The notes under the pieces were generated by a model. That model was not told the origin of the DNA, searched no databases, and was given only the letters and a program-made list of their open reading frames with translations. Source: a virus. Taken from it: a stretch of 61,945 nt of DNA. Where the stretch lies: positions 1 through 61,945 of the IMG/VR virus record IMGVR_UViG_3300020474_001671; one strand, written 5' to 3'. This document shows, piece by piece, positions 41,436-58,298 of this stretch (position 1 is the stretch's first letter; the number at the start of each line of letters is the position of its first letter). Made by a program: the position numbers and the translations under genes.

Positions 41436-41438
41436 CAC

Positions 41439-42806
41439 ATGAACAAACTCGTTATATTTGACCTTGATGGAGTTCTTATTGATAGTAGAGATATGCATTA
41501 TGAAGCACTTAATCATGCTTTGAGTAATGTAGATCGAAAATATGCAATCGGTAGAGAAGAACATCTCAGTATTTACGATGGTCTTCCTACATCTAGAAAA
41601 CTTAATCTTCTCACCGAAAGAAAAGGACTACCCGTCGATCAGCATCAGCAGGTATGGGAAGATAAGCAAGTTGAAACTCTTAATATTTTTGGTAAACTAG
41701 GACAAGATTACCAGTTGATGCATTATTTCAAGCAACTTAAGGATAAGGGATATCAGGTTGCTGTAGCTAGTAATAGTATACGTAATACTGTTAAACTTGT
41801 TCTTCTTAAGTTGGGATTGCTTGAATTTATTGATTACTACATGAGTAATGAGGATGTTCATAGAAACAAACCTTTTCCAGAAATGTATTGGAACTGTATG
41901 ACTGCTTGCAATGCACTTCCTAAAGATACTGTTATCTTGGAGGATAGTCATATTGGTAGGCAGGGTGCTCTTGATAGTGGATCTCATTTAATTGCTATTG
42001 AAAATCGTGATCATTTAAACCAAGATAAAATTGATAAGATAGTCACTATTTTGGATAACAAAAAGTTAACACATATTCCTTGGAAGTCTGAAAAAATGAA
42101 TGTTCTTATTCCCATGGCAGGTCGGGGAAGTAGATTTGCTGATGTTGGTTATACCTTCCCCAAACCTCTCATTGAGGTAAATGGTAAACCAATGATTCAA
42201 GTGGTTCTTGAGAACCTAAACATTGAGGCAAATTATACTTTTGTTGTTCGTAAAGAACATTATGAAAAATATAGTCTTCAGTATCTCCTTACTCTAATTG
42301 CACCTGGTTGTAATATTATTCAGGTAGATGAAATGACAGAGGGATCTGCTTGTACTACTCTTCTGGCAAAAGAGTTTATCAACAACGATGATCCTTTGCT
42401 CCTTGCCAACTCCGATCAGTTTATGGAGTGGAATAGTAATGAGTGCCTTTATGCATTCAATGCTGATGGTATTGATGGTGGTATCTTGACTTTCAAAGCA
42501 ACTCACCCTAAGTGGTCCTATGCTAAGGTCGGGTCTGATGGATTCGTTGCTGAAGTTGCAGAAAAGAAACCAATCAGTCAAGATGCAACAGTTGGTGTAT
42601 ACTTCTGGAAAAAAGGTTCTGATTATGTTAAATATGCAGAGCAGATGATTGACAAAGACATCAGAACTAATGGTGAGTTTTACATTTGTCCTGTATTTAA
42701 TGAGGCAATTAATGATGGTAAGAAGGTGAGAATCAAAGAAATTGAACGTATGTGGGGTATTGGAACTCCTGAAGATCTAAATTATTTCCTAGAGCACTAC
42801 AAATGA
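41439..42806 (+). CDS. HAD phosphatase-nucleotidyltransferase fusion
   Basis: A 455-residue two-domain protein. N-terminal HAD of the beta-phosphoglucomutase type: DLDGVLIDS (about 8-16), helical cap, ASNSIRN, KPFPEMY and LEDSHIG. From about residue 220 a sugar nucleotidyltransferase: LIPMAGRGSRF, PKPLIEVNGKPMI, ANSDQFMEW (metal Asp) and GIGTPEDL. The fusion may move a phosphate on a sugar and then activate it. An internal Met at the domain border could allow separate synthesis of the second domain. Confidence 0.85.
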   Translation: MNKLVIFDLDGVLIDSRDMHYEALNHALSNVDRKYAIGREEHLSIYDGLPTSRKLNLLTERKGLPVDQHQQVWEDKQVETLNIFGKLGQDYQLMHYFKQLKDKGYQVAVASNSIRNTVKLVLLKLGLLEFIDYYMSNEDVHRNKPFPEMYWNCMTACNALPKDTVILEDSHIGRQGALDSGSHLIAIENRDHLNQDKIDKIVTILDNKKLTHIPWKSEKMNVLIPMAGRGSRFADVGYTFPKPLIEVNGKPMIQVVLENLNIEANYTFVVRKEHYEKYSLQYLLTLIAPGCNIIQVDEMTEGSACTTLLAKEFINNDDPLLLANSDQFMEWNSNECLYAFNADGIDGGILTFKATHPKWSYAKVGSDGFVAEVAEKKPISQDATVGVYFWKKGSDYVKYAEQMIDKDIRTNGEFYICPVFNEAINDGKKVRIKEIERMWGIGTPEDLNYFLEHYK

Positions 42807-43261
42807 AACTCATAGCACATAGAGGTAATATCAATGGTCCAGATTCTTCTATTGAAAATAGTCCAGATCAAATTGACAAATGTATAGAACAAGGATATGA
42901 TGTTGAGGTTGATGTTAGATATGATCCTAAAACAGAACGTCTGTGGTTGGGGCATGATGACCCTCAATATGCAGTAACTTGGTGGTGGTTGGCGGGTAGA
43001 GCACAACACCTTTGGATTCATTGTAAAGATATTACTACTATGTTTGCTTTTTCTGATGGTACTAGTGGATATAATTACTTTTGGCATCAGGAAGATGACT
43101 TTACTTTAACTAGTAAACAATTTATCTGGAGTTATCCAGGTAAACCATATACGAGTAGAAGTATTATTGTAATGCCTGAGCAATCCAATCTTTCTTGGGA
43201 GTCATTAAAAGTAACTAATTGCCATGGAATCTGTAGTGATTACATTGAAAAACTAAAATGA
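42803..43261 (+). CDS. Compact GDPD-like phosphodiesterase
   Basis: A 152-residue protein with the TIM-barrel start of glycerophosphodiester phosphodiesterases: IAHRGN (His, Arg; about 4-9), SSIENSPDQI (Glu), VEVDVR (Glu, Asp) and LGHDDP (His). Full enzymes are about 250 residues; here the later barrel strands are mostly missing. It could be a minimal active form or a phospho-glycan enzyme. It overlaps both neighbours by 4 bases. Confidence 0.72.
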   Translation: MKLIAHRGNINGPDSSIENSPDQIDKCIEQGYDVEVDVRYDPKTERLWLGHDDPQYAVTWWWLAGRAQHLWIHCKDITTMFAFSDGTSGYNYFWHQEDDFTLTSKQFIWSYPGKPYTSRSIIVMPEQSNLSWESLKVTNCHGICSDYIEKLK

Positions 43262-44307
43262 CAAAAACAATATTCTCTAAAGCACCTTTACGTCTTGGTC
43301 TTGCTGGTGGTGGGACAGACTTAAGTCCATACTGGAATACCTATGGTGGAGTAGTGTTAAGTGGCACTATTGATCAGTATGCTTATTGTAAAATAGAACC
43401 ATACGATTGTAATTGTCGTGATACTCACTGGGTCTTTAAGAGTATTGATTTAGGAATCAGTGAAAGATATGACATGGGGTCTGAAAAATTCACTAACGGA
43501 GAATATGTGGACACTAAGTTAAAACTTATTGTTAACACCTATCAGTATCTCACTGCTAATTTAGAAAGAAAACCTGTCAAAATTACGACTTATGTTGAGG
43601 CACCAGCTGGGAGTGGTTTAGGAAGTTCTAGCGCACTCGTTGTCGCACTTGTATCTGCTATTAGTGAATACTATGGCATTCCTAATGATGAGTATGAGAC
43701 TGCTACCATTGCACTGAAGATTGAAAGAGAGATATGTGATCTTCCTGGTGGTAAACAAGATCAGTATTCTGCAGCATTCGGTGGATTTAATTTTATGGAG
43801 TTCTTACCTGATGGTAGAACCATTATTAATCCATTAAGACTTAATTACAAGACACAGAATATGCTTGAGATGAATACCGTGTTGTATTATGTTGGTTGTC
43901 CTAGGAATGATTCTAGAATTATTGAGTTGACCTCTCAAAATTTAGACAAAGATGAAAAAACTATAGAAGCAACTCATAAAATTAAGGAAACTTGTATAGA
44001 ATTTAAGAGGAGTTTGCTAACTGGGGATGTTGGTAAGATATCTGATTTGATGAATCAATATTGGAATCTTAAACTGAGAACTAGTAGTAAGGTTGGTTCT
44101 CCAGAACTACTTGAAACTTATGAATACGCTTTGCAAAATGGTGCCACTGCTGCTAAAATATCAGGTGCTGGAGGTGGAGGTCACATGATTCTATTCACTA
44201 CGTTTGAGAATAGGCATGATTTAATTTTATCTTTAAAACAAAAAGAGTATGGTAGAATAGTTCCATTCAAATTTGTAAAACATGGTGTTGATGTTTGGAG
44301 GGCATGA
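43258..44307 (+). CDS. hddA: D-glycero-D-manno-heptose 7-phosphate kinase (HddA-like)
   Basis: A 349-residue GHMP kinase. Start SKAPLRLGLAGGGTD, ATP-loop PAGSGLGSSSA (about 120-130), LPGGKQDQYSAAFGG and the third motif KISGAGGGGHM (about 305-315). These agree with HddA, which makes heptose 1,7-bisphosphate for GDP-heptose. With the guanylyltransferase at 44939 it suggests a heptose route. An isomerase (GmhA) is not seen. Confidence 0.88.
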   Translation: MTKTIFSKAPLRLGLAGGGTDLSPYWNTYGGVVLSGTIDQYAYCKIEPYDCNCRDTHWVFKSIDLGISERYDMGSEKFTNGEYVDTKLKLIVNTYQYLTANLERKPVKITTYVEAPAGSGLGSSSALVVALVSAISEYYGIPNDEYETATIALKIEREICDLPGGKQDQYSAAFGGFNFMEFLPDGRTIINPLRLNYKTQNMLEMNTVLYYVGCPRNDSRIIELTSQNLDKDEKTIEATHKIKETCIEFKRSLLTGDVGKISDLMNQYWNLKLRTSSKVGSPELLETYEYALQNGATAAKISGAGGGGHMILFTTFENRHDLILSLKQKEYGRIVPFKFVKHGVDVWRA

Positions 44308-44633
44308 TGAATTATGTAATTGATATTGACGATACTATCTGTATTCCTGGTCCAACTAACGAAACAAAGTATACAGATGCTACTCCAATGATGGAGAGAA
44401 TCGCAAAAATAAACAATCTATATATTCAAGGAAATTGTATCATCTATCACACTGCTAGAGGTATGGGTAAACATAAGAACTCTTCAAAACTTGCGCATGA
44501 AGAACATTACGATTTCACCCTAGCGCAGTTAGTGTCTTGGGGATGTATGTTTAATGAACTACGTATGGGAAAACCATCGGGTGATTACTATATTGATGAT
44601 AAGGGAGTAAACACTAATGATTTCTTCAATTAA
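44307..44633 (+). CDS. Small HAD-type phosphatase
   Basis: A 108-residue HAD-like protein: catalytic DIDDTIC near the start, YHTARGMG (motif II Thr) and the acidic YYIDDKGV (motif IV). It resembles short capsule-type HAD proteins. It may act as the bisphosphatase step in the heptose route, by analogy with GmhB; this is inference. ATG 44307 is favoured by GGAGG 6 bases upstream. Confidence 0.75.
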   Translation: MNYVIDIDDTICIPGPTNETKYTDATPMMERIAKINNLYIQGNCIIYHTARGMGKHKNSSKLAHEEHYDFTLAQLVSWGCMFNELRMGKPSGDYYIDDKGVNTNDFFN

Positions 44634-44970
44634 ATATGTCCCTAAGGGATGGGGATATGAAAAATGGATCACCAACAACGAAAGATACTGTGGAAAACTT
44701 TTATTTTTTAACAAAGGAAAGAAGTGTTCCTGGCACTACCATCAAATAAAAGAAGAAACTTTTTATATTCACTCTGGTAAGTTGCATTTGCTCTATGGAT
44801 TTGATGATGATATTAAGAAAGCAGAAGGAATAATATTAAATCCTGGGGATAAGTTTGAAGTTCCTAGAAATCTTAGGCATCAGATGTATGCCATTGAGGA
44901 CACGGATATGTATGAATTTTCCACTACACATTTTGAGGATGATAGTTACAGAGTTATCAAAGGGGATTAA
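44617..44970 (+). CDS. Cupin, mannose-6-phosphate-isomerase-like
   Basis: A 117-residue cupin. Metal ligands: His, His and Glu in CSWHYHQIKEETFYIHSG and His in PRNLRHQMYA. The GWGYEKW start recalls C-terminal domains of GDP-mannose pyrophosphorylase/phosphomannose isomerase. It may be a sugar-phosphate isomerase or a sensor subunit. It overlaps the gene before by 17 bases and the next by 32. Confidence 0.78.
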   Translation: MISSIKYVPKGWGYEKWITNNERYCGKLLFFNKGKKCSWHYHQIKEETFYIHSGKLHLLYGFDDDIKKAEGIILNPGDKFEVPRNLRHQMYAIEDTDMYEFSTTHFEDDSYRVIKGD

Positions 44971-45580
44971 ACTATATCTGCTTGTTGGTGGTAAAGGAAC
45001 TAGACTTGCTTCTGTTAGTAATGGTATCCCTAAGCCACTGATGGATATTCATGGTAAACCTTTCATTCAAAGAGTAATAGAGAACTTATATGGATTTGAT
45101 ATCACTCTGGTATGTTCTGATCTTAATTATGAATACTTTAGAGACCTAGGAGTTGATGTATTCAATGAGGGAGAACCATCAGGGACTGCTGGATTTCTAC
45201 GCAAGGTAGATTTGCCAGAGTATTTTTATGTGATGAATGGTGATACGTATTACTCTGGTGATTTAAATTTAGATACAGATACCTCAACAGTTTTTGTTAC
45301 TGAAGAACTTGTAGCAAATGATGTAGGATATATTGAAGGTACAGATGGAAAGGTTGAAAGATTTGTGGAGAAAAATCCTGAGGCAAGTGGTAAAAAGATG
45401 GTCAATATGGGGATCTATAAAATATATTCTGATGATATCATAGTGCCTGAAAAGTTGTCATTGAGTATGGAGTATGATATAATGCCTATGATGCCACTAT
45501 CATATAAAGTTTTAGAGTCAGATAGGTTTGACATTGGTACTCCAGAAAGATTAGAGAGATTTAAATTATGGTGTGTTTGA
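44939..45580 (+). CDS. hddC: Nucleotidyltransferase, HddC-like
   Basis: A 213-residue sugar-1-phosphate nucleotidyltransferase: LVGGKGTRLAS (nucleotide loop, about 15-25), PKPLMDIHGKPFI, MNGDTYY (metal Asp), VEKNP and DIGTPERLERF. Size and neighbours fit D-glycero-alpha-D-manno-heptose 1-phosphate guanylyltransferase, giving GDP-heptose. The start at 44939 gives the normal distance to the nucleotide loop. Confidence 0.8.
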   Translation: MIVTELSKGIKLYLLVGGKGTRLASVSNGIPKPLMDIHGKPFIQRVIENLYGFDITLVCSDLNYEYFRDLGVDVFNEGEPSGTAGFLRKVDLPEYFYVMNGDTYYSGDLNLDTDTSTVFVTEELVANDVGYIEGTDGKVERFVEKNPEASGKKMVNMGIYKIYSDDIIVPEKLSLSMEYDIMPMMPLSYKVLESDRFDIGTPERLERFKLWCV

Positions 45581-46470
45581 TTACTGGTGCTGCTGGTATG
45601 ATGGGGTCTCATTTGTATGAAACTCTTTTAAATCATGGTCAAGAAGTGATTCCAACGTATCACAAACCGACAATTGATTCTAGAGATGAGATACTAGATA
45701 ATATTACAGTTATTCTTGATGTATTAAACAAGAGTGACATTATTCGTGTCTTGTCGAAATATCAACCGTCAGTAATTTATCATTTGGCAGCACAGAGTAG
45801 ACCTGATGTTTCTTTTGAAGATCCAATTCATACTATAACTACAAACGTAATTGGCACAGCAAATCTTCTTGATTGTTGTGCCAAGTTAAATCTAAACCCT
45901 CTATTCATCAACGCATCTTCATCAGCTGTGTATGGTGATATTGATTGGTCTAACCCACCAGATGAGGATAGATATTGCAATCCACTCTCTCCATATGGGA
46001 CATCTAAATTGTCTCAGGAGCACATTGTGAGAAATTATCACCAGATGTTTGGTATTGACTATGTGAATGTCAGAATTTTCAATTGCACTGGTCCAAGAAA
46101 GACTAATGACTTTGTTTCTGATATGTGTAAACGTGTCGTTAATGAAGAGTTTCCTATAAAGGTTGGAAATTTGAATGGGGTTAGATCAATCATAGATGTA
46201 AGAGACTTGACAGAGGCACTATACCGTTGTCAAAATATCAAGAACGAAACAATTAATCTTGGTTCTAGTGTCTCCTTACGTATCTCAGATGTCTTTAAAA
46301 AAATAGTCGGTGATCAAGATTATTATATTGATGATGGTCTATTGAGACCCACTGATGAACCCATTATCATTGGAAATATAGACAAGGCACAGAAACTATT
46401 ACAATGGAGACCTGTAATTAGATTAGAAAAAACAATTAGTGACACACTCGATTATTGGAAAAACTTATGA
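45568..46470 (+). CDS. NAD-dependent sugar reductase/epimerase, RMD-like
   Basis: A 300-residue extended SDR: TGAAGMMGSHL, HLAAQSRPDVSFEDP, ASSSAVYGD, YGTSK (catalytic Tyr, Lys), RIFNCTGPRKTNDFV. The Thr-Asp-Glu of dehydratases is absent, so it probably reduces or epimerises; it most resembles GDP-4-keto-6-deoxy-mannose reductase, acting after a 4,6-dehydratase. The product could be GDP-rhamnose or GDP-fucose-like. Confidence 0.75.
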   Translation: MVCLITGAAGMMGSHLYETLLNHGQEVIPTYHKPTIDSRDEILDNITVILDVLNKSDIIRVLSKYQPSVIYHLAAQSRPDVSFEDPIHTITTNVIGTANLLDCCAKLNLNPLFINASSSAVYGDIDWSNPPDEDRYCNPLSPYGTSKLSQEHIVRNYHQMFGIDYVNVRIFNCTGPRKTNDFVSDMCKRVVNEEFPIKVGNLNGVRSIIDVRDLTEALYRCQNIKNETINLGSSVSLRISDVFKKIVGDQDYYIDDGLLRPTDEPIIIGNIDKAQKLLQWRPVIRLEKTISDTLDYWKNL

Positions 46471-47240
46471 AAGTAGCATTATGTTTATCAGGTCAACCTA
46501 GACTCATTCCAGAGTGTGCCCCATACATTCTAGAGAACATGTGTGTGGGATATGATGTGGATGTATTTTTTCATTTCTGGTTTGATGAAAAATTACAAAC
46601 ACAACCATACAAATACGGTGGTGATGGTGGATGGGAAAAACAGAGGATCTCTCCTTCAGCAATTGAAGATGCTTTGAGTATATACAAACCAAAACTCTAC
46701 AAGACAGAGGAGAGTAAAACTTTTAGAGATAACACTCTACATACTGATTATGCATATTATCCAGACACAGCAAGAATAGTCCCTTGGTCTGTTCATTGGC
46801 AAGAATCAGAAGAACCTGATTACATTAGTAGGATGGTTAACAACTGGATGTCTTATCACTATAGTGTTAATCAAGTCAATCTTTTAAGGAAAGAGTATGA
46901 GTATGCAAACGATTTCAAGTATGATTGGGTTGTAAAATTGAGAAGTGATTGTGAACCTAGACAAAAAATTCAGTATGAACAATACGATAAATCTGTGGTA
47001 AACTATTCTGGATGGTTGAATCAACCTGATGGAATGATCAATGATTGGCTAGACTTTGGTGGGTCTAGAGCAATGGATGTTTTTATGAGCACATTTAACT
47101 ATATGGAAATATTAATGGAACGATGTAAAAAAGAGTTTGGAGGTGCTTGGTCCAATGAGATGCTACATAGAAAAGCACTTGATGTATTTGGAATTGATCA
47201 TCAACCACATCCATTCATTGTAACTGTACCAAGATTTTAA
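46467..47240 (+). CDS. Putative glycosyltransferase or sugar-handling protein
   Basis: A 257-residue protein (MKVALCLSGQPRL...). The strand-loop start, VFFHFWFDE, a long Trp-rich middle and YDWVVKLRSDCEPR with acidic residues are of the type seen in GT-A-like phage and capsule proteins starting ALCLSGQPR. The donor is unknown. It overlaps its upstream gene by 4 bases. Confidence 0.65.
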   Translation: MKVALCLSGQPRLIPECAPYILENMCVGYDVDVFFHFWFDEKLQTQPYKYGGDGGWEKQRISPSAIEDALSIYKPKLYKTEESKTFRDNTLHTDYAYYPDTARIVPWSVHWQESEEPDYISRMVNNWMSYHYSVNQVNLLRKEYEYANDFKYDWVVKLRSDCEPRQKIQYEQYDKSVVNYSGWLNQPDGMINDWLDFGGSRAMDVFMSTFNYMEILMERCKKEFGGAWSNEMLHRKALDVFGIDHQPHPFIVTVPRF

Positions 47241-47242
47241 TT

Positions 47243-48280
47243 ATGTCAAACACAAAGGTAATTATCTGGGGTTTCCCCCTGGATACTCATACACATTCAT
47301 ATACTCACTCCGCTCTGTATAATGCATTCAAGCATCTTGGATATGATGCTTATTGGTTTCATCATCAGAATTATCCAGACCCTGCCATATTTGATTATTC
47401 AAACTCTCTTTTCATCACAGAGGGATTTGCGGACATGGATATTCCAATTTTAGATTCCTCTACTTACTTTGTTCACAATGCAGTAAATCCTGGTAAGTAT
47501 CTGGAAAAAGATGCTAGACTCGTTGATATTAGATTCAACGTTAGGGAGATAAACGATTACAACTATAATATGGTTGTGGATAAAAAGGAACTTACAGAGA
47601 TTGATCCAGTAAGTTTCTATAATCCTAAGGCAGATGATAGTGTTCTTGGTGACAGGTATAAGAAAGGACTGAGTGGATATGAAGCACTTCATACTATTTG
47701 GGCAACTAACCTTCTTCCTCATGAAATTAATTTTGAGGATAGATTTTTTCCGAGAGAAGACAATTTTTATTTCATTGGCACTCTTGGTGGAAGTCCTGCT
47801 CTTGAGATGCAGAAGGTAGCACAGACTTTAGATAGACTTGGTATTCCATTCGTCCATAGAAATCCTTGGAGTGACCCCTGCACTTTTGAAGAAAACAAAG
47901 TTTATATGCAGAAGTCTATAATTTCTCTAGATGTTCGTGGTAGTGACGCATATCACGGTAACTCTGATGGGAATATTGAATTGCATGGTAAACCAGTTAC
48001 TGGAGGAAACCATAAGAAGATTGGATTTATACCATGTCGAACTATCAAGCAGATTAGTTTTGGTAGACTTCCTGGTACGAATTCTTCATCAGTCAAAGAA
48101 GTGTTTGGTGATTATGTTATTTACAATGATGATGAATCTCAACTACCAATTGATTGTTTAGAGTTTGAGAAGAATCCAGATCATGATCTCATGTATGAAG
48201 CAATGAGATTTGTTAAAGAGAATCACACGTTTATCAATCGTGCTGAAGCAATTTTAAAAGTATTTAATAAGGAGGTTTGA
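47243..48280 (+). CDS. Hypothetical protein of the glycan block, possible glycosyltransferase
   Basis: A 345-residue soluble protein. It begins with a strand and HTHSYTHSALYNAFKHLGYDAYWF, like the first beta-alpha unit of GT-B enzymes, and later has FIGTLGG and a basic-polar GRLPGTNSSS stretch. No clear donor motif. Its place between glycosyltransferase-like genes suggests the same pathway. Confidence 0.6.
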   Translation: MSNTKVIIWGFPLDTHTHSYTHSALYNAFKHLGYDAYWFHHQNYPDPAIFDYSNSLFITEGFADMDIPILDSSTYFVHNAVNPGKYLEKDARLVDIRFNVREINDYNYNMVVDKKELTEIDPVSFYNPKADDSVLGDRYKKGLSGYEALHTIWATNLLPHEINFEDRFFPREDNFYFIGTLGGSPALEMQKVAQTLDRLGIPFVHRNPWSDPCTFEENKVYMQKSIISLDVRGSDAYHGNSDGNIELHGKPVTGGNHKKIGFIPCRTIKQISFGRLPGTNSSSVKEVFGDYVIYNDDESQLPIDCLEFEKNPDHDLMYEAMRFVKENHTFINRAEAILKVFNKEV

Positions 48281-48282
48281 AA

Positions 48283-49098
48283 ATGTCTGTAACTTTAGTA
48301 ACTGCTCTCTATGATATTGATAGGGGAACAAAGGGAGATGGTAGATCCTTTGATGAATATCTTGATTGGTTTGCAAAAACCCTTAAGACTAAATCACCAA
48401 TGGTTGTCTTTGTTGATGAATCTTTAAAAGAATTTGTGGAGAAGAATAGAAAGGGTTTACCAACAAAGGTAATTACTCAATCATTGGAAGAGATTCCTTA
48501 TTATGAATTGAATAATGATATTCAAAAAGTTTTAGATGATGAGGATTTTAAAGGGAAAGTCTCTTGCCCATCTAGAGTTGAGTGTAAGATGAGTCTCTAT
48601 AATGTTGTCATTTTCTCTAAGTTCCCTTGGGTAAAGAGAGTCATTGAAGAGAACCCTTTTGATACTGAATACTTTATGTGGATGGATGCAGGTCTTTCTA
48701 GATTTTTTGGTCCTCATGATGTGAATATCAATATGCCTTATCCTTCAGAGGCAGCACAAGAGGTGCTCTTATCTTGTAAGGATACTGTATTGATTCAAGC
48801 TACAATGAATTTTTATACTGATTTAGTTGAATCTGAAGTGTGTGATGAATCATACTTCCTTGACGCTAGATCTTGGGTTATGGCAGGACTATGGGGTGGT
48901 GGAGCAAAAGCACTCAGTAAGTTCTGTGATATGGTTGATGATGTTCTTCGGAATAAAATGATTAAGAATAATGTTATCAATAATGAGCAGATTGTGATGG
49001 CATATCTTTATAAAAATAATGATGAACTGTTCAGTGTCTTTGAAAATTATACTCATCTTCATAGACAATATGAAATTATTGCGGAGTTGCAAGCATGA
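48283..49098 (+). CDS. HtrL/YibB-type putative glycosyltransferase
   Basis: A 271-residue protein. VTALYDIDRG near the start, WFAKTLKTKSPMVVFVDE, EYFMWMDAGLSRFF (metal-type Asp) and the Trp/Gly-rich AGLWGGGAKAL match the HtrL/YibB family linked to lipopolysaccharide synthesis. AAGGAGG 7 bases upstream fixes the ATG at 48283. Confidence 0.8.
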   Translation: MSVTLVTALYDIDRGTKGDGRSFDEYLDWFAKTLKTKSPMVVFVDESLKEFVEKNRKGLPTKVITQSLEEIPYYELNNDIQKVLDDEDFKGKVSCPSRVECKMSLYNVVIFSKFPWVKRVIEENPFDTEYFMWMDAGLSRFFGPHDVNINMPYPSEAAQEVLLSCKDTVLIQATMNFYTDLVESEVCDESYFLDARSWVMAGLWGGGAKALSKFCDMVDDVLRNKMIKNNVINNEQIVMAYLYKNNDELFSVFENYTHLHRQYEIIAELQA

Positions 49099-49754
49099 AG
49101 ATTCTCATTGAACTCAGGGCAGCTGTAGATGTTAGTGATTACAAGTATGGAAATGACTATGTTCAGTCCAGGATAGATGATTACTCTAGGGGTCTAAAGA
49201 TTTTCTTTGATAAGGTAGATACCTCTAAGTGTGATGTTGTTTTTGTTGAAAATACTCATGAAAGTGAAGATGATCTTCCACAAGAAGTCAAAGATGCAAT
49301 TCCTGCAGGAACTTTTATGTTTGTTAAGCACAAGAATGATTATGGAAAGTATAATAATGGAGGTGGTGACATTGAAATGTGGAAGGAATACCAAGAGCAA
49401 ATCAGTGAATATGATTATTTCTTCCACTATGAACCTAGAATGATTCTTGATGATGCCTCAATGATTGAGTCATTTTTAAACAATCCTAGAAACCTTTTCT
49501 GTGTCGAGGATAATACTGTCTTCCCTTGCGTCAAAACTGGATACTTTGGTGTCAAAGTAGTAGACTTCATAGAGTATCTTGATGGCATTAATCTAGATGA
49601 GTTTGCTCCACCACCACCAAAAGATGGAGTCAACATCGAGAATAGTATGAGAGATTTTTGGGAAACCAAAGACACAGATTTTCAACCAGATATTAAATAC
49701 TGCACCCGGAGATGGTATAATGAAAGTTATGGAAGTGGACACTCAAAATATTAA
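49095..49754 (+). CDS. Hypothetical protein of the glycan block, 219 residues
   Basis: A soluble protein: MKILIELRAAVDVSDYKYG, a central MFVKHKNDYGKYNNGGG and YDYFFHYEPRMILDD (metal-type Asp pair possible), then a Pro run APPPPKDG. A GT-A-like glycosyltransferase is possible but not certain. It overlaps the neighbours by 4 and 35 bases. Confidence 0.55.
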   Translation: MKILIELRAAVDVSDYKYGNDYVQSRIDDYSRGLKIFFDKVDTSKCDVVFVENTHESEDDLPQEVKDAIPAGTFMFVKHKNDYGKYNNGGGDIEMWKEYQEQISEYDYFFHYEPRMILDDASMIESFLNNPRNLFCVEDNTVFPCVKTGYFGVKVVDFIEYLDGINLDEFAPPPPKDGVNIENSMRDFWETKDTDFQPDIKYCTRRWYNESYGSGHSKY

Positions 49755-50280
49755 ATCTTCTTATAAAGAAAACAACTACGATAAAGTATTTCAATCAATT
49801 TGTTTTGTTTCAAAACCAAAGAATATAGTTGAGTTTGGTATCTTAGAGGGATATTCTCTAGATTCTTTTATCAAGTATGGTGGAAACGCAATTATTGAAG
49901 CAAATGATTTGTTTGATGAATTTCCACACAATGCAGCAGACTATGAGTTTGTAACTAACAAGTATAAAGACAACTCAAATGTCTTTATTAATAAGAAAAA
50001 TTTTTATGATTCTGTTGGGGATTATAAAGATAATTCGATAGACATTTTACACATTGATATTGCAAATAATGGAGATGTCTTTGACTTTGCAATACAAAAT
50101 TATCTACCTAAAGTACGTGGAGTCATGATGCTTGAAGGTGGTTCTGTGGAAAGAGATAATGTTGAGTGGATGTTGAGGTATAATAAACCCACAATTCAAC
50201 CTGTGTTGCAAAAGTATGCAGACAGTGTTAGAATAGAAGTTCTAGACGATTACCCATCAATAACTCTAATTTCAAAATGA
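49720..50280 (+). CDS. Methyltransferase-like protein
   Basis: A 186-residue protein with NIVEFGILEGYSLDSFIKYGG (SAM-loop-like, about 35-55) and DILHIDIANNGDVFDFA, as in small SAM-dependent methyltransferases. It lacks the metal set of the TylF-like gene. GGAG 8 bases before the ATG. The overlap with the upstream gene is 35 bases. Confidence 0.65.
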   Translation: MKVMEVDTQNIKSSYKENNYDKVFQSICFVSKPKNIVEFGILEGYSLDSFIKYGGNAIIEANDLFDEFPHNAADYEFVTNKYKDNSNVFINKKNFYDSVGDYKDNSIDILHIDIANNGDVFDFAIQNYLPKVRGVMMLEGGSVERDNVEWMLRYNKPTIQPVLQKYADSVRIEVLDDYPSITLISK

Positions 50281-51470
50281 AAGTAAAAGAAAGTATCATA
50301 CCTCTATTTAAGGTATTCATGGCAAATGAAACTCCTGAAAAAGTATCAAAAGTATTGATGTCTGGTTTTATTGGTCAGGGTCCAAAGGTAGAAGAGTTTG
50401 AATTGAAATTAAAGACGTTTTTCAATAATGAAAAAGTTGTTAGTGTGAATGCTGCAACATCAGCAGAACACCTTGCTCTTCATATGCTGAAGAGACCTGC
50501 TGATAACATCAAATCATACTTTGGTGTTGCCTTTGCAAACTCTCATTGGGATGGTATGGAACCTGGTGATGAAGTTTTGACTACGCCACTGACTTGTACT
50601 GCTACTAACTGGCCTATTGTTGCTAATGGATTTAAAGTAAAGTGGGTTGATGTTGATCTTAACACTTGCAATATTGACCTAAATGACCTTGAGAAGAAGA
50701 TCACATCAAAAACTAAAGTAATCATGGTGGTTCACTGGGGTGGGTATCCAGTGGACCTTGATCGGTTGAAGGAGATCCAAGACAATGCAGAGGAGAAGTA
50801 TGGGTTCAGACCTGTCGTGATTGAGGATTGTGCTCATGCCTTTGGATCAACATACAAGGGATCAAAGATTGGTAATCATGGTAATATCTGTACATTCAGT
50901 TTTCAAGCAATCAAGCACCTGACCACTGGTGATGGTGGTTGTGCAATATTCCCTAATGAAAATCAGGTGAAGAGGGCAAAACTTCTTCGTTGGTATGGTA
51001 TTGATAGGGAAAACAATCGTAAGGACTTTCGGTGTGAGAGTGACATCTCAGAGTATGGATTTAAGTTTCATATGAATGATATTAATGCCACTATTGGTAT
51101 TAACAATTTACCTGGAGTGGAAGAGAATATTGCCAAGACTATTGACAATGCTAATTTTTACAATCAAGAGTTGGTAAATGTACCTGGAGTGACTCTTCTT
51201 GAGAATAATTCTGATCGTCAATCATCATATTGGATCTACACCTTGAAGGTTGAAAGGCAGCAGGACTTTATGAGTAAGATGAAAGAATGTAACATCATGG
51301 TTAGTAGAGTACATGAAAGAAATGATATTCATTCATGTATGTCTGAGTTTAGAACTGATCTTCCTAACCTAGATAAACTTGTAAAAGAAATGATTTGTAT
51401 TCCTGTTGGTTGGTGGGTCACACCAGAAGATCTACAGTATATTGTTGACTGCATTAAGGAGGGTTGGTAA
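50277..51470 (+). CDS. DegT/DnrJ/EryC1/StrS sugar aminotransferase
   Basis: A 397-residue PLP enzyme. AATSAEHLALHML at the cofactor phosphate site, VIEDCAHAFGSTYKG (Asp contacting the pyridine N), and the lysine in FSFQAIKHLTTGDGG that binds PLP. It would add an amino group to a keto-sugar, for example a 4-keto or 3-keto NDP sugar made by the block's dehydratase. A long N-terminal insertion (DNIKSYFGVAFANSHWDG) is unusual. Confidence 0.88.
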   Translation: MKVKESIIPLFKVFMANETPEKVSKVLMSGFIGQGPKVEEFELKLKTFFNNEKVVSVNAATSAEHLALHMLKRPADNIKSYFGVAFANSHWDGMEPGDEVLTTPLTCTATNWPIVANGFKVKWVDVDLNTCNIDLNDLEKKITSKTKVIMVVHWGGYPVDLDRLKEIQDNAEEKYGFRPVVIEDCAHAFGSTYKGSKIGNHGNICTFSFQAIKHLTTGDGGCAIFPNENQVKRAKLLRWYGIDRENNRKDFRCESDISEYGFKFHMNDINATIGINNLPGVEENIAKTIDNANFYNQELVNVPGVTLLENNSDRQSSYWIYTLKVERQQDFMSKMKECNIMVSRVHERNDIHSCMSEFRTDLPNLDKLVKEMICIPVGWWVTPEDLQYIVDCIKEGW

Positions 51471-52126
51471 TGCTTGGTACAAAGTTCTCTTTTGATAAAG
51501 AGAAGTATAAGTTTAGGAACGAAATAGAAAAAATATTTCAAAATAATAACTTAGAATATATTCATGAGTGGGAAGATTGTAATTTTGGAAAACTTACATT
51601 TTCTACAGATCAAAGTACAAAAATACATAAAAAATATTACGAGCAAGTAAAGGAAACCAATTTTTTGAATATCTACAATAAATTTGTAAAGGAAATTATT
51701 TTTCCTCATTTTAAAAAAGATATCCTATACCAAAGATTTCCCACTTTTAGAGTTCAAGTTCCCAACAATATTTCTGTGGCAGAATTTCATAAAGATAAAA
51801 CTTATAGTCATAGTCCTCATGAAGTAAATATATTTTTACCAATTACAGAAGCAAAAGATACCTCTACTATTTGGGTAGAGTCTGTAGAAAATAAGGGTGA
51901 TTATAAACCAATGAATGCCGATTATGGGGAGTATTATGTATGGAATGGATCAAATCTAACACATGGTAATAAAATCAATATAACTAGTATGACTAGATTT
52001 AGTGTTGATTTTAGGATTCTTCCTTATGAAAAATATAATGAGTGTGATATTAAAGAAACCGTCACTAAAAAAATGGAATTAAAATTGGGTAAGTATTTTG
52101 AATTATTGAGGTATAGTAATGACTGA
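51470..52126 (+). CDS. 2-oxoglutarate/Fe(II) oxygenase, StrG-like
   Basis: A 218-residue protein. Iron triad: His and Asp in EFHKDKTYSH and His in SNLTHGNKIN; Arg in TSMTRFSVDFRI for 2-oxoglutarate. It resembles StrG-type proteins of aminoglycoside gene clusters. It could hydroxylate or oxidise a sugar. AAGGAGGG lies 6 bases before the ATG, which overlaps the aminotransferase stop. Confidence 0.75.
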   Translation: MLGTKFSFDKEKYKFRNEIEKIFQNNNLEYIHEWEDCNFGKLTFSTDQSTKIHKKYYEQVKETNFLNIYNKFVKEIIFPHFKKDILYQRFPTFRVQVPNNISVAEFHKDKTYSHSPHEVNIFLPITEAKDTSTIWVESVENKGDYKPMNADYGEYYVWNGSNLTHGNKINITSMTRFSVDFRILPYEKYNECDIKETVTKKMELKLGKYFELLRYSND

Positions 52127-53009
52127 TGTTAAGTATCCTGCAAAGTTTTTAGAACAATATAAGATTAATGGGTGTGTCAATATTGATACAGAACCTTATT
52201 TTGAAAGAACAGAATGTTATCCTTTTTTCCAAGAGCACTTAGTTGATTATAAAAATCTTCTGGTGGATCTTGTAGAGAAAGGAAAGAGTAAGACATTCTA
52301 TAAGTTTGGTGATGGTGATTACTGGTTCTTAAGAGGTATTCCTTCCGGTAGTGCTAGACCTGGAGCAAGAGCTCTTGCCAAACCATATTCTGAAATAAAT
52401 CACCAACAATTTATTGAAGGATCTAAATTATGTGATTATTATACATGTGAAATCTATACTCATAATAGAGAATTTTTTAGAGAAGTAATTCCTCATCAGA
52501 AGATTCATTTTCCTGCGGAGTATGGATATGCTTTGATTGCAAATAAGTGGTTGTTTAAAACTTTTGCAGGTAAGATTGGTCTCATTGGAGCAAGCACAAA
52601 AATGAATTTAGTGAGTGAATTAATGGGAGCAGATCAGTATCAAGAGTATCTTGGTATTGAAAAGTTTGAGGATTATATTTCTCTACCTCAAAAGTTTGCT
52701 TGTGATGATTTGGATGCAACTGAACAGATGGTTGGAGAACAACTAAGGAAATCAACTTCTAAGATCTTCCTGATGGGTATGGGACACGTTAAGTCTGGTC
52801 TTATACATAGACTGAAGAAGTATACAGATGCTGTATTTCTAGATGTTGGTGCTGGTATTGATGCAATTGCTGGTATCATCGATGTAGGAAGACCATACTT
52901 TGGGGATTGGACTAACTATCAAATTGACGAAGAAAATCTGTATGAAGATGTAGATTATCTTGGGTATGAATCTTTAGGAAAGCATATTATTTTGGAAAGA
53001 ATTCAATGA
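52119..53009 (+). CDS. GT-D-type glycosyltransferase
   Basis: A 296-residue protein with the GT-D pattern: FYKFGDGDYWFLRG near the N-terminal third, IGLIGASTKM, IFLMGMGHVKSGL and VFLDVGAGIDAIAG (final acidic strand). GT-D enzymes transfer glucose in bacterial surface glycan and adhesin glycosylation. The acceptor is unknown. Confidence 0.72.
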   Translation: MTDVKYPAKFLEQYKINGCVNIDTEPYFERTECYPFFQEHLVDYKNLLVDLVEKGKSKTFYKFGDGDYWFLRGIPSGSARPGARALAKPYSEINHQQFIEGSKLCDYYTCEIYTHNREFFREVIPHQKIHFPAEYGYALIANKWLFKTFAGKIGLIGASTKMNLVSELMGADQYQEYLGIEKFEDYISLPQKFACDDLDATEQMVGEQLRKSTSKIFLMGMGHVKSGLIHRLKKYTDAVFLDVGAGIDAIAGIIDVGRPYFGDWTNYQIDEENLYEDVDYLGYESLGKHIILERIQ

Positions 53010-53905
53010 AACATCCCGGTAAACACTCTATTGAAGTAACAACAAAGATAGGTTGCTCTAATGTATGTGAGTATTGTCCTCAATCTACCTTGATTAGTAG
53101 GTATCGTGAAAGGATTGGAAAAGAAAAAGACACGATGATGTCCCTAGAGACATACAAGAAGTGTATTAGCACCATGCATAATGATGAAGTCACTCTAAAC
53201 TTCACAGGATATGTTGAACCTTTTCTGAATCCTGAGTGTGCTGATATGGTCATTCATACGAACGAGATGGGTTTTGAATTACTTGTTAACACCACTCTGA
53301 TGGGACTCACTAAAGAGCAGTGGGACAAGATGAGTGACATTCCTTATGATTGTAATATTCATTTGCCATCTGGATCATACTTTGAAATGATCGGGGTCAA
53401 AATTCCGATTCAGTATTATGAAGAGGGTAGTCAGAAGTATCCAGAGTTGAGTGATGAATATTATGAGATGCTCAATTATGTGATTCAAAATCCTAATAAG
53501 TGGACAATCAACTTTCATTGCCATGGTGATCTACACCCCTTGCTCAATGACTTGACTAGGTATTATAATGTGGGAGTAAGAGATATCAACAGCAGAGCAA
53601 TGAATATGTTGTTAGAAAAAAAAGAAAAGGTGCCACCTGAACAGAACATTAGAGGCAAGTGCCCAAGGGTATATCAGAATGTTCTCTTACCAGATGGTTC
53701 TCTTTCTATCTGCTGTCAGGACTATGGTCTTGATGAGATTATGGGTAACCTCATGGAGAATACTTGGGAAGAGTATATTAACTCCGAACGTGTACAAGAT
53801 GTAAGATCACACGGGTCAGATCTGTGTGATTATTGCGAAGAGGAGATTGATTATAGGGGTAAAGAAAAGTGGGCTGAATGGAGGAGACCTCAACAAATTA
53901 GATAA
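53006..53905 (+). CDS. Radical SAM/SPASM-type enzyme
   Basis: A 299-residue protein. The cluster motif is CSNVCEYC (C-x3-C-x2-C) at about residues 18-25. A C-terminal Cys set (GKCPRVY, SICCQDYG, LCDYCEEE) fits an auxiliary SPASM-like iron-sulfur site. It would use SAM cleavage for radical chemistry, perhaps sugar epimerisation, deoxygenation or peptide modification. Its place in a glycan block suggests a sugar or glycoprotein substrate; unproven. Confidence 0.82.
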   Translation: MKHPGKHSIEVTTKIGCSNVCEYCPQSTLISRYRERIGKEKDTMMSLETYKKCISTMHNDEVTLNFTGYVEPFLNPECADMVIHTNEMGFELLVNTTLMGLTKEQWDKMSDIPYDCNIHLPSGSYFEMIGVKIPIQYYEEGSQKYPELSDEYYEMLNYVIQNPNKWTINFHCHGDLHPLLNDLTRYYNVGVRDINSRAMNMLLEKKEKVPPEQNIRGKCPRVYQNVLLPDGSLSICCQDYGLDEIMGNLMENTWEEYINSERVQDVRSHGSDLCDYCEEEIDYRGKEKWAEWRRPQQIR

Positions 53906-53906
53906 T

Positions 53907-55577
53907 ATGAAAATAGCAATCGTTGGTCCGGGCATTATGCCAATTCCACCTACAGGGTGGGGTGCAGTTGAGATTCTTATTTGGGATCAAAAACTAGCTC
54001 TTGAAAAATTAGGTCATGAAGTATCAATTGTAAACACTCCTAAACCAATTGAGATACTGCAGCAATTGCATGAAATTAATCCTGATTTTGTTCATGTTCA
54101 GTATGATGATTTTGTTGAATTAGTTCCTTACATCAGATATCCGTATGCAATTACAAGTCATTTTGGATATCTAGAGCAACCAAACAAATGGGATTACTAT
54201 GGTCCTAGGGTAGCAGAGAAATTTGCACAGATAAAACCAAACGTATTTTGTTTGTCTGAAGGCATCAAGAATGTCTATCAAAACATAATGAAGTTTGATG
54301 AATCTAAATTATCTGTTACTCCAAATGGGGTAAATGTTGATCTTTTTAGAAGAACTGATACTCCGAAGTATCCAGATAGATCTTTGTGTCTTGCAAAGGT
54401 TGATTACAGGAAGAGGCAATGTTTCTTTCAGGGCATTAGTAGTCTTTACTATGCTGGTAATGTTGTAGATGAAAGATTTGATCAATCCAAAAACTATCTT
54501 GGTGAGTGGGAAAAGCAATATCTTTATGATAATCTCACTGACTATGGTAACCTTGTGCTTCTTTCTGATGGAGAGGCACATCCATTAGTATGTACAGAAG
54601 CACTAACTGCAGGTTTGGGTGTGGTTGTAAGTCAGTATGCAACTGCAAATCTTGATCTAAGTAGGGAATTTATCACTGTTATTCCGGAGGACAAAATTGG
54701 TGATCTTGAGTATGTTGAAAAATGTATTATAGAAAATAGAGAGTACTCTGTTAAGAATAGAGATGAGATAATCGAATACTCAAAACAATTTGATTGGGTC
54801 GAGGTTGTCAAGAATCACTATGTTCCAAATATGGAAAAGATTATCAGGAATACATGTAATAAAGTTGCTATTTGTTTTATTGGAACAGGTAAGTATATTA
54901 ATTTTCTTCCGAATTATTATCAACATATTGAAGAGCATTTTCTACCTAACTCCGAAAAAACATTCTTAGTGTTTACGGATGGGGAATTAGAAGGAGTTCC
55001 AGATAACGTGATTCAATATCATCAGAATCATTTAGATTGGCCATTTATTACTCTCAAAAGATTTGAGATTCTAAATCAAGCAAGACAAGATATCATGAAA
55101 AATGATTGGTTCGTTTTTATTGATGCTGATGCTTTAGTGAAAAGTGATATCACTGAAGATGAATTTTTTGATTATGATAAATCTTTCTTTGGAGTGCATC
55201 ATCCATGTCATTTTCTTGGTATGAAACCACATGATGAGTATCCTGGTGCGTTTGAGACAAACCCAAAATGCCGAGCTTCTATTTCAAAGGGTGATGATAC
55301 TTCAACTTATTGGCAAGGATGTTTGTGGGGTGGAAAAGTTCCTGATGTTTTACAGTTAATTGATGAATTGCAAACAAGAACTGAAAATGATTTAAAAGAT
55401 GATATAATTGCAGTATGGCATGACGAGAGTCATTTAAATAAATTTTTTATTGAAAATAAAGAGAGGGTAAATACCCTTTCACCCTCATATGCATATCCCG
55501 AAGATTTTTCTTCACAGTGTAAATTTGATTCAAAAATAGTGCATTTATCAAAAAATAATTCAAAGTATCATGTATAA
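53907..55577 (+). CDS. GT4-GT6 glycosyltransferase fusion
   Basis: A 556-residue protein. Residues 1 to about 312 are GT4-like (GT-B fold): VGPGIMPIPPTGWGAVE, VTPNGVNVDLF and EAHPLVCTEAL with the family E-x7-E. From about 318 the sequence is GT6-like (ABO blood-group family): TLKRFEIL, the metal motif DAD near 405, GVHHPCHFL, TYWQGCLWGG and WHDESHLNKFF near 504. A GT6 gene has been described in cyanophage P-SSM2; I recall no description of this fusion. The two domains would add two sugars in turn. Confidence 0.88.
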   Translation: MKIAIVGPGIMPIPPTGWGAVEILIWDQKLALEKLGHEVSIVNTPKPIEILQQLHEINPDFVHVQYDDFVELVPYIRYPYAITSHFGYLEQPNKWDYYGPRVAEKFAQIKPNVFCLSEGIKNVYQNIMKFDESKLSVTPNGVNVDLFRRTDTPKYPDRSLCLAKVDYRKRQCFFQGISSLYYAGNVVDERFDQSKNYLGEWEKQYLYDNLTDYGNLVLLSDGEAHPLVCTEALTAGLGVVVSQYATANLDLSREFITVIPEDKIGDLEYVEKCIIENREYSVKNRDEIIEYSKQFDWVEVVKNHYVPNMEKIIRNTCNKVAICFIGTGKYINFLPNYYQHIEEHFLPNSEKTFLVFTDGELEGVPDNVIQYHQNHLDWPFITLKRFEILNQARQDIMKNDWFVFIDADALVKSDITEDEFFDYDKSFFGVHHPCHFLGMKPHDEYPGAFETNPKCRASISKGDDTSTYWQGCLWGGKVPDVLQLIDELQTRTENDLKDDIIAVWHDESHLNKFFIENKERVNTLSPSYAYPEDFSSQCKFDSKIVHLSKNNSKYHV

Positions 55578-55824
55578 AATATTTTTTAATGTAAGATGTT
55601 TTTTATGGTCTATTGCTGCAGAAATAGAATATAAACTTTATCCATGGAAATCTAAAGAACCTCCTTCTTGGGCAATATCAAGATATAATGTCGATCATGG
55701 TATAATTGATGAGTATGAAAATAATATGTATTTTGGTTGGATAAAATCTTTAGAAGAGAAGATGAGTGGAATTGATGATAGATTAGAACATCTAAAAAAT
55801 GAAGTTGATGAGATTAAAAAATGA
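55570..55824 (+). CDS. Small coiled-coil protein of the glycan block
   Basis: An 84-residue protein with a hydrophobic start (IFFNVRCFLWSIAAEIEY), a Trp/Pro-rich middle and a terminal heptad helix (LEEKMSGIDDRLEHLKNEVDEI). It overlaps the transferase before by 8 bases and the next gene by 4. It may tether enzymes to the membrane; unknown. Confidence 0.55.
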   Translation: MYKIFFNVRCFLWSIAAEIEYKLYPWKSKEPPSWAISRYNVDHGIIDEYENNMYFGWIKSLEEKMSGIDDRLEHLKNEVDEIKK

Positions 55825-56669
55825 AAATCGCAATCTTGGGATCTGCTGGACAGATCGGTGCTTATCTAGAAGAATATTTAAAAGAGAAGGGGCATGATGT
55901 AATTGGTGTTGATATAGTTGAAGGTCCGCAGAATGATCTTCGTGTAACACCAAACATTTATGTTGAAGGCATTATAAAGAATGCTGACTTTGTATTCTTC
56001 CTTGCTTTTGATGTTGGTGGATCTCATTACCTCAAAAAGTATCAGCATACTTTCCAGTTCATCAACAATAATACACGTATGATGGCAAATACTTTTGCCT
56101 TACTTGAGAAGTATAACAAGAGATTCGTTTTTGCATCATCTCAAATGAGTAATATGAGTTACTCTCCTTATGGAGTGATGAAGAGAGTTGGTGAACTTCA
56201 TACTACAGCATTGAAAGGACTTATAGTGAAGTTCTGGAATGTGTATGGTATCGAAAAAGATATGGAGAAGGCTCATGTGATCACTGACTTCATCCGTAGG
56301 GGATTTGAGGAGGGTGAATTTGAGATGATGACTGACGGCACTGAAGAACGTCAGTTTCTTTATGCTGAGGACTGTTGTGAGGCATTAGAGACTGTGATGG
56401 AGAACTTTACCGACTTCAAACCAGAAGATCCTCTTCATGTTACTTCCTTCAGTTCTACTTCAATTAAAGATATTGCCTCAATCATTCAGGGGCAATTTAA
56501 TTTGATTGGTAAGACCGTAAATATTAAACCTGGTCTTGCAAAAGATAGTGTTCAGATGGATAAACGAAACGAAGCAGATACTTATATTACTGGATGGTGG
56601 ATGCCTAAAACTACTATAGATAGAGGGATTGCAAAAGTTTTTGAGGATATGAAAGGTGATTGGATTTAA
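55821..56669 (+). CDS. NAD-dependent epimerase/dehydratase
   Basis: A 282-residue SDR: GSAGQIGAYL (cofactor loop), FFLAFDVGGSHYL, FASSQMSNMSYSPYGVMK with catalytic Tyr and Lys, FWNVYG, RQFLYAEDC. The substrate is unknown, probably a nucleotide sugar. The usual second Gly-rich context is weaker than in the two other SDRs. Confidence 0.78.
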   Translation: MKIAILGSAGQIGAYLEEYLKEKGHDVIGVDIVEGPQNDLRVTPNIYVEGIIKNADFVFFLAFDVGGSHYLKKYQHTFQFINNNTRMMANTFALLEKYNKRFVFASSQMSNMSYSPYGVMKRVGELHTTALKGLIVKFWNVYGIEKDMEKAHVITDFIRRGFEEGEFEMMTDGTEERQFLYAEDCCEALETVMENFTDFKPEDPLHVTSFSSTSIKDIASIIQGQFNLIGKTVNIKPGLAKDSVQMDKRNEADTYITGWWMPKTTIDRGIAKVFEDMKGDWI

Positions 56670-57507
56670 TCATATAGGAACTATTGGAAGGTTTGGTAAT
56701 CAGATGTTTCAGTATGCGGCACTCAAAGGTATTGCCGCAAATCGAAAGTTTGAATATACCATTCCTCCAGAGAACTCACAAGTTCAAATTGATAATTATG
56801 GATTAATAGAAGCATTTGAACTTACCCACAATAAAAATATTGGATGGATTGAAACTGAAAATATAATTCAGGAAAATCATTTTCATTTTGATGAGGATAT
56901 ATTTAATAAGTGTCCTGACAAAGTAAGTGTTTATGGATTTTTTCAAACAGAAAAATATTTCAAACATATTGAAGACGAAGTTCGTAAAGATTTTACTTTC
57001 AAAAGTAATTGGTTAGATCCTTGTAAAGAGTTTCGTAGTCAGATGGGAGAAGAAGTTATCTTCCTTCATGTTCGTCGTGGTGATCCTGGTCTTACTGATA
57101 AGAGAGGATTTAAGTGGGCATATGTAAACCTTGCACATCAACATCCTGTGCAACCTCTTGAGTATTATGAGAAGGCACTTGCAGAGTTTGATGAAAGTAT
57201 TCCTGTAGTTGTGTTTTCAGATTCGATTGAGTGGTGTAAGGAGCAAGAGTTCTTTCAGAATGATCGATTCATGTTCTCTGAACCAGAAGATACTCATTCA
57301 GATGGTGCATTAGTTCCTTATCTTGATATGTGCTTGATGTCTTTATGTGATCATGCTATTATTGCTAATAGTTCTATGAGTTGGTGGGGTGCATGGTTGA
57401 TTCAAAATCCAAACAAAAAAGTAATTGCACCAAGCATATGGTTTGGTTCTGATTATGCCGACAAAGATACAAAAGATTTATATTGTGAGAATTGGAAGGT
57501 TATCTAA
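56656..57507 (+). CDS. Alpha-1,2-fucosyltransferase-like GT11
   Basis: A 283-residue GT11 enzyme: GRFGNQMFQYAAL near the start, HVRRGD (GDP-fucose binding, about 132-137) and HAIIANSSMSWWGAWL. It would add fucose or a similar GDP-sugar in alpha-1,2 linkage. The GTG start at 56656 overlaps the previous gene by 14 bases; no better ATG lies before the first motif. Confidence 0.9.
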   Translation: MIGFNHIGTIGRFGNQMFQYAALKGIAANRKFEYTIPPENSQVQIDNYGLIEAFELTHNKNIGWIETENIIQENHFHFDEDIFNKCPDKVSVYGFFQTEKYFKHIEDEVRKDFTFKSNWLDPCKEFRSQMGEEVIFLHVRRGDPGLTDKRGFKWAYVNLAHQHPVQPLEYYEKALAEFDESIPVVVFSDSIEWCKEQEFFQNDRFMFSEPEDTHSDGALVPYLDMCLMSLCDHAIIANSSMSWWGAWLIQNPNKKVIAPSIWFGSDYADKDTKDLYCENWKVI

Positions 57508-58298
57508 TGGATAGAAATAAGGCACTTTATAAACTTAAAAGACTTCCTCCCATATATTATCTAAATCTGGATGAGCAACCAGAAAGAAAAGAATATATGG
57601 AAGAGCAATTTAAGTATTGGGAGATTGAGAATTATACTCGTATCTCTGCATACGATGGTAGGGACGGTAGAGACCTCGGAGACATTCTCAAAGGAAGATA
57701 TCCTGATAGTATGACTTCTGGTGAAGTAGGATGCACTACGTCCCATCTGAAAGCAATGGTAGAGTTTCTTAAAACAGATGCTCCATGTGCATTGATGATG
57801 GAAGATGATTGTGATATTTCTACTGTATCTTATTGGCCTTTTGAATGGAAAAATTTCTATGCAAAAGTTCCTTATGACTATGATGTAATTCAACTTGCAG
57901 TTATTAATACGGCATCAGTTCATTTACAAATGCATAAAAGATTTGTAAATGATTTTTCAACAGCATGTTATATGATTACCCGTCGTCATGCACAAAAACT
58001 AATTGACCTTCATATAAGAGGAGATAAGTATAAGATTGATAATGGAGTTAAACCAAGAGCAGTTGCTGATGATCTGATTTATAATTCTGGAAATACTTTT
58101 ACTATTCCTTTGTTCTTATACAAACTTGAACTTGGTTCTTCAATTCATGATGAGCATATTGAAGTTTTTCATAAGTCAAGTTATGAAGGTCTTTGGAATT
58201 TTTGGAAAACACAAGCAAACCAAATTGAAGATTGGGATGCACTATTTGACTATGACCCATACTTTAATCGGTTGCCTCCTGGGTTTGAAGGGAAATAA
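57507..58298 (+). CDS. GT25-type glycosyltransferase
   Basis: A 263-residue protein: IYYLNLDEQPERKEYM, SGEVGCTTSHLKAMVEFL and LMMEDDCDIS (metal acidic cluster) match glycosyltransferase family 25 of lipopolysaccharide synthesis. The ATG overlaps the upstream stop by one base. It ends the glycan block before a terminator. Confidence 0.88.
   Translation: MDRNKALYKLKRLPPIYYLNLDEQPERKEYMEEQFKYWEIENYTRISAYDGRDGRDLGDILKGRYPDSMTSGEVGCTTSHLKAMVEFLKTDAPCALMMEDDCDISTVSYWPFEWKNFYAKVPYDYDVIQLAVINTASVHLQMHKRFVNDFSTACYMITRRHAQKLIDLHIRGDKYKIDNGVKPRAVADDLIYNSGNTFTIPLFLYKLELGSSIHDEHIEVFHKSSYEGLWNFWKTQANQIEDWDALFDYDPYFNRLPPGFEGK

Follow-up and report, generated by a model that had tools for sequence, protein, structure and literature searches.

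The open reading frame (ORF) at 53907-55577 of the viral DNA analyzed here, a stretch of 61,945 bases (the window) that is a complete IMG/VR virus record, raises the question of whether a GT4 and a GT6 glycosyltransferase are truly joined in one protein and what such a protein would make in a phage. By its gene content, the window comes from a T4-like cyanophage, a virus of marine cyanobacteria. It carries the phage core genes for DNA polymerase B, UvsX, primase, helicase, ribonucleotide reductase, and PstS, as well as genes for a high-light-inducible protein and a ferredoxin. Synechococcus phage S-SKS1 is 83% identical to its replication region, and a near-identity DNA search in phage records gave no match.

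A dense glycan cluster occupies one strand from about 37,984 to 58,298, and the ORF lies near its end. The upstream part of the cluster (37984-53905, plus strand, as are all features of the window described below) contains genes for NDP-sugar dehydratases/epimerases, an HddA-like heptose kinase, nucleotidyltransferases, a DegT aminotransferase, and methyltransferases. Within it, the genes at 41439-46470 have the makeup of a heptose-type pathway: a HAD and nucleotidyltransferase fusion, the HddA-like heptose kinase (284 bits, under the cut-off of 600), a cupin, a nucleotidyltransferase, and a dehydratase. These genes suggest that a GDP- or other NDP-heptose derivative is formed. The window, itself a fragment, has no clear gmd or Fcl gene. 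A radical SAM/SPASM gene (53006-53905; PF13186, 30.2 bits) lies immediately 5′ of the ORF, and the scan of neighboring genes found the same arrangement in loci L008-L010. A guessed late-promoter pattern matched once, no more than expected by chance.

Downstream, the ORF is followed by an 84-aa ORF at 55570-55824 that belongs to no family (no PHROG at 1e-5, no Pfam at 0.01) and by a gene for an NAD-dependent sugar epimerase/dehydratase at 55821-56669 (PF01370, 87.4 bits), which scores far under every NCBIfam equivalog cut-off. The latter separates GT4-GT6 from a 283-aa GT11 protein (56656-57507), a family of α-1,2-fucosyltransferases to which it is assigned by its match to PF01531 (89.7 bits) and by the HxRRxD motif, here HVRRGD. 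The cluster ends with a 268-aa GT25 protein (57492-58298; PF01755, 52.8 bits; phrog_2835) of the lipopolysaccharide (LPS) β-galactosyltransferase family. A PDB sequence search with the GT11 and GT25 proteins returned no match.

The ORF itself runs in a single open frame of 556 aa from an ATG at 53907 to a stop codon ending at 55577. A longer frame with a GTG start at 53826 is an alternative, but the alignments with homologues begin at the ATG. Two PHROG families that are usually found as separate proteins divide the sequence between them, with aa 1-313 matching phrog_33732 (E = 3.5e-167) and the remainder matching phrog_3317 (E = 1.4e-102). The first domain (aa 1-314; 53907-54848) is a GT4 of GT-B fold. 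It matches PF13439 at aa 49-145 with 35.2 bits (cut-off, 28.5), and PF00534 scores 14.4 bits, below the cut-off of 26.4. In its C-terminal half lies the EX7E motif, E223-x7-E231 (54573-54599; SDGEAHPLVCTEA), both glutamates of which are kept in 35/35 GT4 rows. A PDB sequence search with the GT4 domain gave only a weak match (2r60, E = 0.12), and the 50 matches listed by a fold search with the model cover the GT6 part only. The junction (aa 312-318; 54840-54860) extends about 5 aa past the GT4 helix. In a confident structure model of the whole protein (mean pLDDT, 89.2), both folds are present and the last GT4 helix (297-315) continues into the first GT6 strand (319-325); the relative orientation of the two domains in the model is uncertain at a pTM of 0.65.

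The second domain (aa 319-556; 54861-55574) had been assigned by an earlier note on this DNA to GT6 of the blood-group A/B type, with a GT-A fold, and the analysis supports this assignment. PF03414 matches aa 319-540 with 75.4 bits (curated cut-off, 25), the closest solved relatives by sequence are BoGT6a (E = 6e-25) and the ABO transferases (E = 5e-17), and the GT6 part of the model superimposes on BoGT6a (4ayj) with a TM-score of 0.90 and an rmsd of 2.2 Å, the ABO fold being matched too. In a tree of 82 rows with phage and bacterial sequences, BoGT6a, and ABO, the domain falls inside GT6, a result which, as the tree has no outgroup family, shows placement among GT6s and not monophyly. The catalytic motifs of this domain are also established: D406-A-D408 (55122-55130) aligns with the metal-binding DVD of ABO and with the NAN of BoGT6a, and Glu507 in WHDES (55416-55430) is the equivalent of the GT6 catalytic glutamate. 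The WHDES motif occurs in 86/99 GT6 sequences.

The joining of GT4 and GT6 in one frame is not confined to this record. Among 65 related loci from a first IMG/VR scan, 14 others (L002-L014 and L019, with L005 truncated at the 5′ end) have an uninterrupted GT4-GT6 frame, with 59-99% identity per domain, and such frames were also found in L121, L123, L127, L130, L131, and L142 by a second scan. L002 is 98% identical to the window protein over its full length, and L005, which reaches across the junction, differs at 2 of 1236 nt. The 13 distinct full-length fused proteins have linkers of identical length and variable sequence, and the length is constant despite a divergence of about 40% in their GT6 parts; of the 25 nucleotide differences that separate the window from L002, 10 fall within 36 nt at the linker. 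Stand-alone GT6 proteins begin with MKVAI, and this methionine is replaced by N, D, or T in 13/13 of the distinct fused proteins, so an independent GT6 start at that position is impossible. Within pairs of fused sequences, dN/dS was 0.02-0.11 for GT4 and 0.03-0.18 for GT6, values which indicate that both domains are selected as working enzymes. The fusion, its conservation, and purifying selection on both halves are thereby established. An assembly join, a frameshift, or a sequencing artefact as the source of the single frame, the first two of which the earlier note named as grounds for refutation, found nothing in its favor and is excluded, given that intact domains in the same open fusion recur in many independent contigs of separate metagenomes, that L002 and L005 are near copies across the junction, and that the fused frame is under purifying selection at codon level.

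Is the fused GT6 an unusual enzyme? Published work describes bacterial GT6 proteins with an NxN-type motif in place of DxD (PMC3961637), and the DAD of the window had been regarded as a vertebrate-like peculiarity. The contrast with bacteria stands insofar as NAN is the motif in both Bacteroidota GT6s that were retrieved via the Pfam family. However, the motif does not distinguish the window protein, and we rejected that idea, as all 99 distinct GT6s that the loci yielded (97 viral sequences, L149, and L150) have DxD. Since L149 is assigned to Saprospiraceae and L150 to Candidatus Pacearchaeota, DxD is not restricted to phages. L149:3110-5944, in a metagenome-assembled genome, encodes a 945-aa protein with a PLOD-type glycosyltransferase domain and a DxD GT6, and L150:3782-4690 encodes a DxD GT6. 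As of 2014, no archaeal GT6 was known (PMC3961637), and the L150 contig may be viral or misbinned.

The donor pocket is unusual. The residues that determine donor specificity in ABO, positions 235, 266, and 268, are G/L/G in GTA and S/M/A in GTB (PMC4202792). By alignment and residue counting, their equivalents in the window protein are Cys434 (55206-55208) and, for 266-268, Gln470-Gly-Cys472 (55314-55322). This C/Q/C triad is shared by 89/99 GT6s, differs from GTA, GTB, and BoGT6a, and occurs in no characterized GT6 that was compared. The donor sugar is therefore not predictable from known GT6s. A second, distant lineage of phage GT6 (L237:4998-5693, which is P-SSM2, with L164, L168, and L170) groups with BoGT6a and ABO, apart from the main cyanophage clade, and has Y/A/G or Y/A/A in L164, L168, and L170.

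The presence of GT6 in a cyanophage is likewise no novelty, since it has been published for "two cyanophages" (PMC3961637) and is annotated in P-SSM2. When we searched the literature, mostly open-access papers, for GT6 fusions in cyanophages or for glycans of blood-group type, the only mentions were of these two GT6s and of cyanophage fucosyltransferase genes. As both halves also exist separately and cyanophage GT6 is known, what is new in the GT4-GT6 fusion is its domain architecture and the module in which it sits; the enzyme families themselves are known.

The stronger finding is the linkage between GT6 and GT11. In the second scan, GT11 lay within 1.5 kb of GT6 in 75/78 loci and within 100 bp in 56 of them; after clustering of the GT6s at 90% identity, 68/69 clusters had a GT11 nearby, as did 37/37 loci of at least 11 kb. 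Only 1/23 loci with GT4 alone had a GT11, a contrast (Fisher p = 6e-19) that is indicative only, because the flanks of these loci were shorter (3 kb) and the loci partly redundant. The pairing is also present in the complete genomes of P-SSM2, S-CAM9, SynMITS9220M01, Bellamy, and ACG-2014f, and in both Bacteroidota loci of NAN-type GT6 a GT11 is adjoining or nearby. In the reverse direction, the linkage is weaker: GT6 was found in 31/80 GT11 loci and was absent from the stretch examined in 49/80. Fcl-like (GDP-L-fucose synthase) genes near the pair in L070 and L067 score 420-435 bits (curated cut-off, 500) and would fit a GT11 that uses GDP-fucose. In one virus scan, 325/360 candidate stretches encoded a relative, whereas GT6 was found in 3/396 Bacteroidota genomes, one of them being the genome used as the center.

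What the module makes can be considered from the chemistry of its families. The enzymes of both GT4 and GT6 are of the retaining type, and the characterized GT6 enzymes act on β-Gal or β-GalNAc. The GT6 domain is therefore unlikely to extend a sugar just added by an α-forming GT4 domain. The suggestion that the fusion could add two sugars processively went unsupported, as nothing points to processivity. We consider it probable, from the analysis as a whole, that one bifunctional GT4-GT6 protein acts in a module with GT11 and GT25 whose product is a branched A/B-like terminal trisaccharide, and we infer the activities, sugars, acceptor, order of steps, and destination as follows. The fusion would be a single protein of the cytoplasm in which both glycosyltransferase domains are catalytic. 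GT4 would transfer one α-linked sugar, and the metal-dependent GT6 would transfer from a UDP-sugar a second α-linked, Gal- or GalNAc-like sugar to the same glycan, with a galactose-type acceptor. The β-Gal would probably be supplied by GT25, and GT11 would place fucose or a related GDP-sugar on the same galactose. Such a fusion would hold two steps of the pathway in fixed stoichiometry, with no new chemistry and no requirement for processivity. In infection, the product would most likely decorate either the LPS of the host or the virion.

An alternative is that the sugar transferred by GT6 is unrelated to blood-group chemistry, for instance a deoxy sugar, an amino sugar, or one derived from heptose, and that GT11 is just a frequent cyanophage gene. 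The C/Q/C triad is conserved and unusual, and by its mismatch with known GT6 pockets the transferred sugar may differ. The window has heptose kinase and nucleotidyltransferase genes and no clear gmd or Fcl, so the donor of GT11 could be a GDP-heptose derivative, and GT11 also occurs without GT6, in the 49 loci that have none in the stretch examined. However, linkage from GT6 to GT11 is nearly complete and extends to the Bacteroidota NAN-type loci, and ABO, BgtA, BoGT6a, and WbnI all use Fuc-α-1,2-Gal acceptors (PMC4202792; for the A/B enzymes also PMC3961637), a preference typical of the characterized bacterial GT6s. We therefore regard this alternative as rather unlikely, and the A/B-like trisaccharide is retained as the preferred product.

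A more serious alternative concerns the fusion itself, which could be a neutral, chance joining of operon neighbors whose enzymes work as if separate, with no role for the junction. GT4 and GT6 are both common as unfused genes in other cyanophages, and in many phages the stand-alone GT4 stops a few residues from the fusion junction. GT4 also has other partners: it is fused C-terminally to GT25 in proteins of about 594 aa (L115:9485-11266, L118:8582-10363, and L119:7617-9398) and to a carbamoyltransferase in an 839-aa protein (L242:4001-6520; SynMITS9220M01_208), of which the two parts are separate, overlapping genes in Bellamy. The phage GT4 is thus a repeatedly fused module, which weakens the case for a selected coupling with GT6 in particular and suggests that fusion may be a side product of tight gene packing. 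The drift of the linker sequence also agrees with a neutral junction. On the other hand, the linker length is constant despite the divergence of the GT6 parts, and two GT6 clades have retained fused forms. The common gene orders are GT11-GT6 and GT4-GT11-GT6-GT25, compared with GT4::GT6-(...)-GT11-GT25 in fused loci; since GT11 sits between the unfused GT4 and GT6, loss of a stop codon is insufficient and a rearrangement is needed. Taken together, a neutral fusion falls a little short of an even chance.

In separate trees of the GT4 and GT6 halves, the fused proteins fall in separate clades: the GT6 of the window has L003, L004, and L006 as clade-mates, and its GT4 groups with L008-L013 and unfused Bellamy-type genes. 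A single clade of fused rows was rejected for both halves (p-AU of 0.014 for GT6 and 7e-5 for GT4), p values that are only indicative because the tests were run after the first trees had been inspected. A single origin with vertical descent was accordingly discarded. There have been either at least two GT4-GT6 fusions or one fusion reshuffled by recombination or domain swaps, and the equal length of the linkers leaves room for one fusion followed by domain replacement.

The fusion alone is of modest importance, and the broader weight of these results lies in the linkage of GT6 with GT11 across cyanophages. The glycan clusters of these phages are large and conserved, and the linkage turns their product into a testable question, the prediction being a fucosylated, α-galactosylated glycan terminus on the LPS of the host or on virions. 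A bolder view, which we put forward tentatively and hold to be doubtful in its full extent, is that marine T4-like cyanophages widely carry a complete H-to-A/B-like module (GT4, GT25, GT11, and GT6) in which the GT6 donor specificity is new by virtue of C/Q/C and that, in several lineages, GT4 and GT6 have been fused repeatedly to give one bifunctional enzyme. The phage GT6s also form a large DxD-bearing reservoir for the evolution of blood-group enzymes, and the C/Q/C pocket and the natural GT4-GT6 fusion offer defined enzymes of possible use in glycan synthesis.

Compared with known systems, the nearest relatives of the fused GT6 are the stand-alone cyanophage proteins of phrog_3317 (P-SSM2 PSSM2_268, S-CAM9 S820908_179, and that of ACG-2014f), which belong to the same family, have DxD, and have GT11 adjoining or near, but are separate proteins of 230-245 aa. 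That of P-SSM2 lies within a large glycan cluster close to hli and ferredoxin genes and, as a member of the second lineage, is nearer to the bacterial and ABO enzymes (31% identity). A single chain with two glycosyltransferase domains that work on the same glycan is also known from KpsC and the exostosins (GT47-GT64); however, their families are unrelated to those of the phage fusion, and exostosins make repeating polymers, of which there is no indication here. BoGT6a of Bacteroides ovatus (PDB 4ayj and 4cj8) is the closest solved structure and shares with the window GT6 the fold, the catalytic glutamate, and about 30% identity, but it has NAN instead of DAD, is metal independent (PMC3961637), consists of a single domain, and has other donor-pocket residues. 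The vertebrate ABO and α-1,3-Gal transferases have the same catalytic domain with DxD and the WHDESH motif; ABO differs from the window GT6 in its identity of only about 22% by structural alignment and in its donor triad (G/L/G or S/M/A), and these enzymes are Golgi membrane proteins with no GT4 fusion. In Escherichia coli O86, WbnH is a GT4 enzyme and WbnJ is the β-Gal transferase. To build the B-type O-unit of this strain, WbnH adds an α-linked sugar, other sugars follow, and a fucosyltransferase of GT11 acts together with WbnI, the GT6 that makes the B-type structure (PMC4506291, PMC4202792). All of these enzymes (WbnH, WbnJ, WbnK/WbwK, and WbnI) are separate and act on undecaprenyl-PP, and the candidate β-Gal transferase of the phage is instead a GT25, but the H-to-A/B logic is the same as that proposed here for the phage module.
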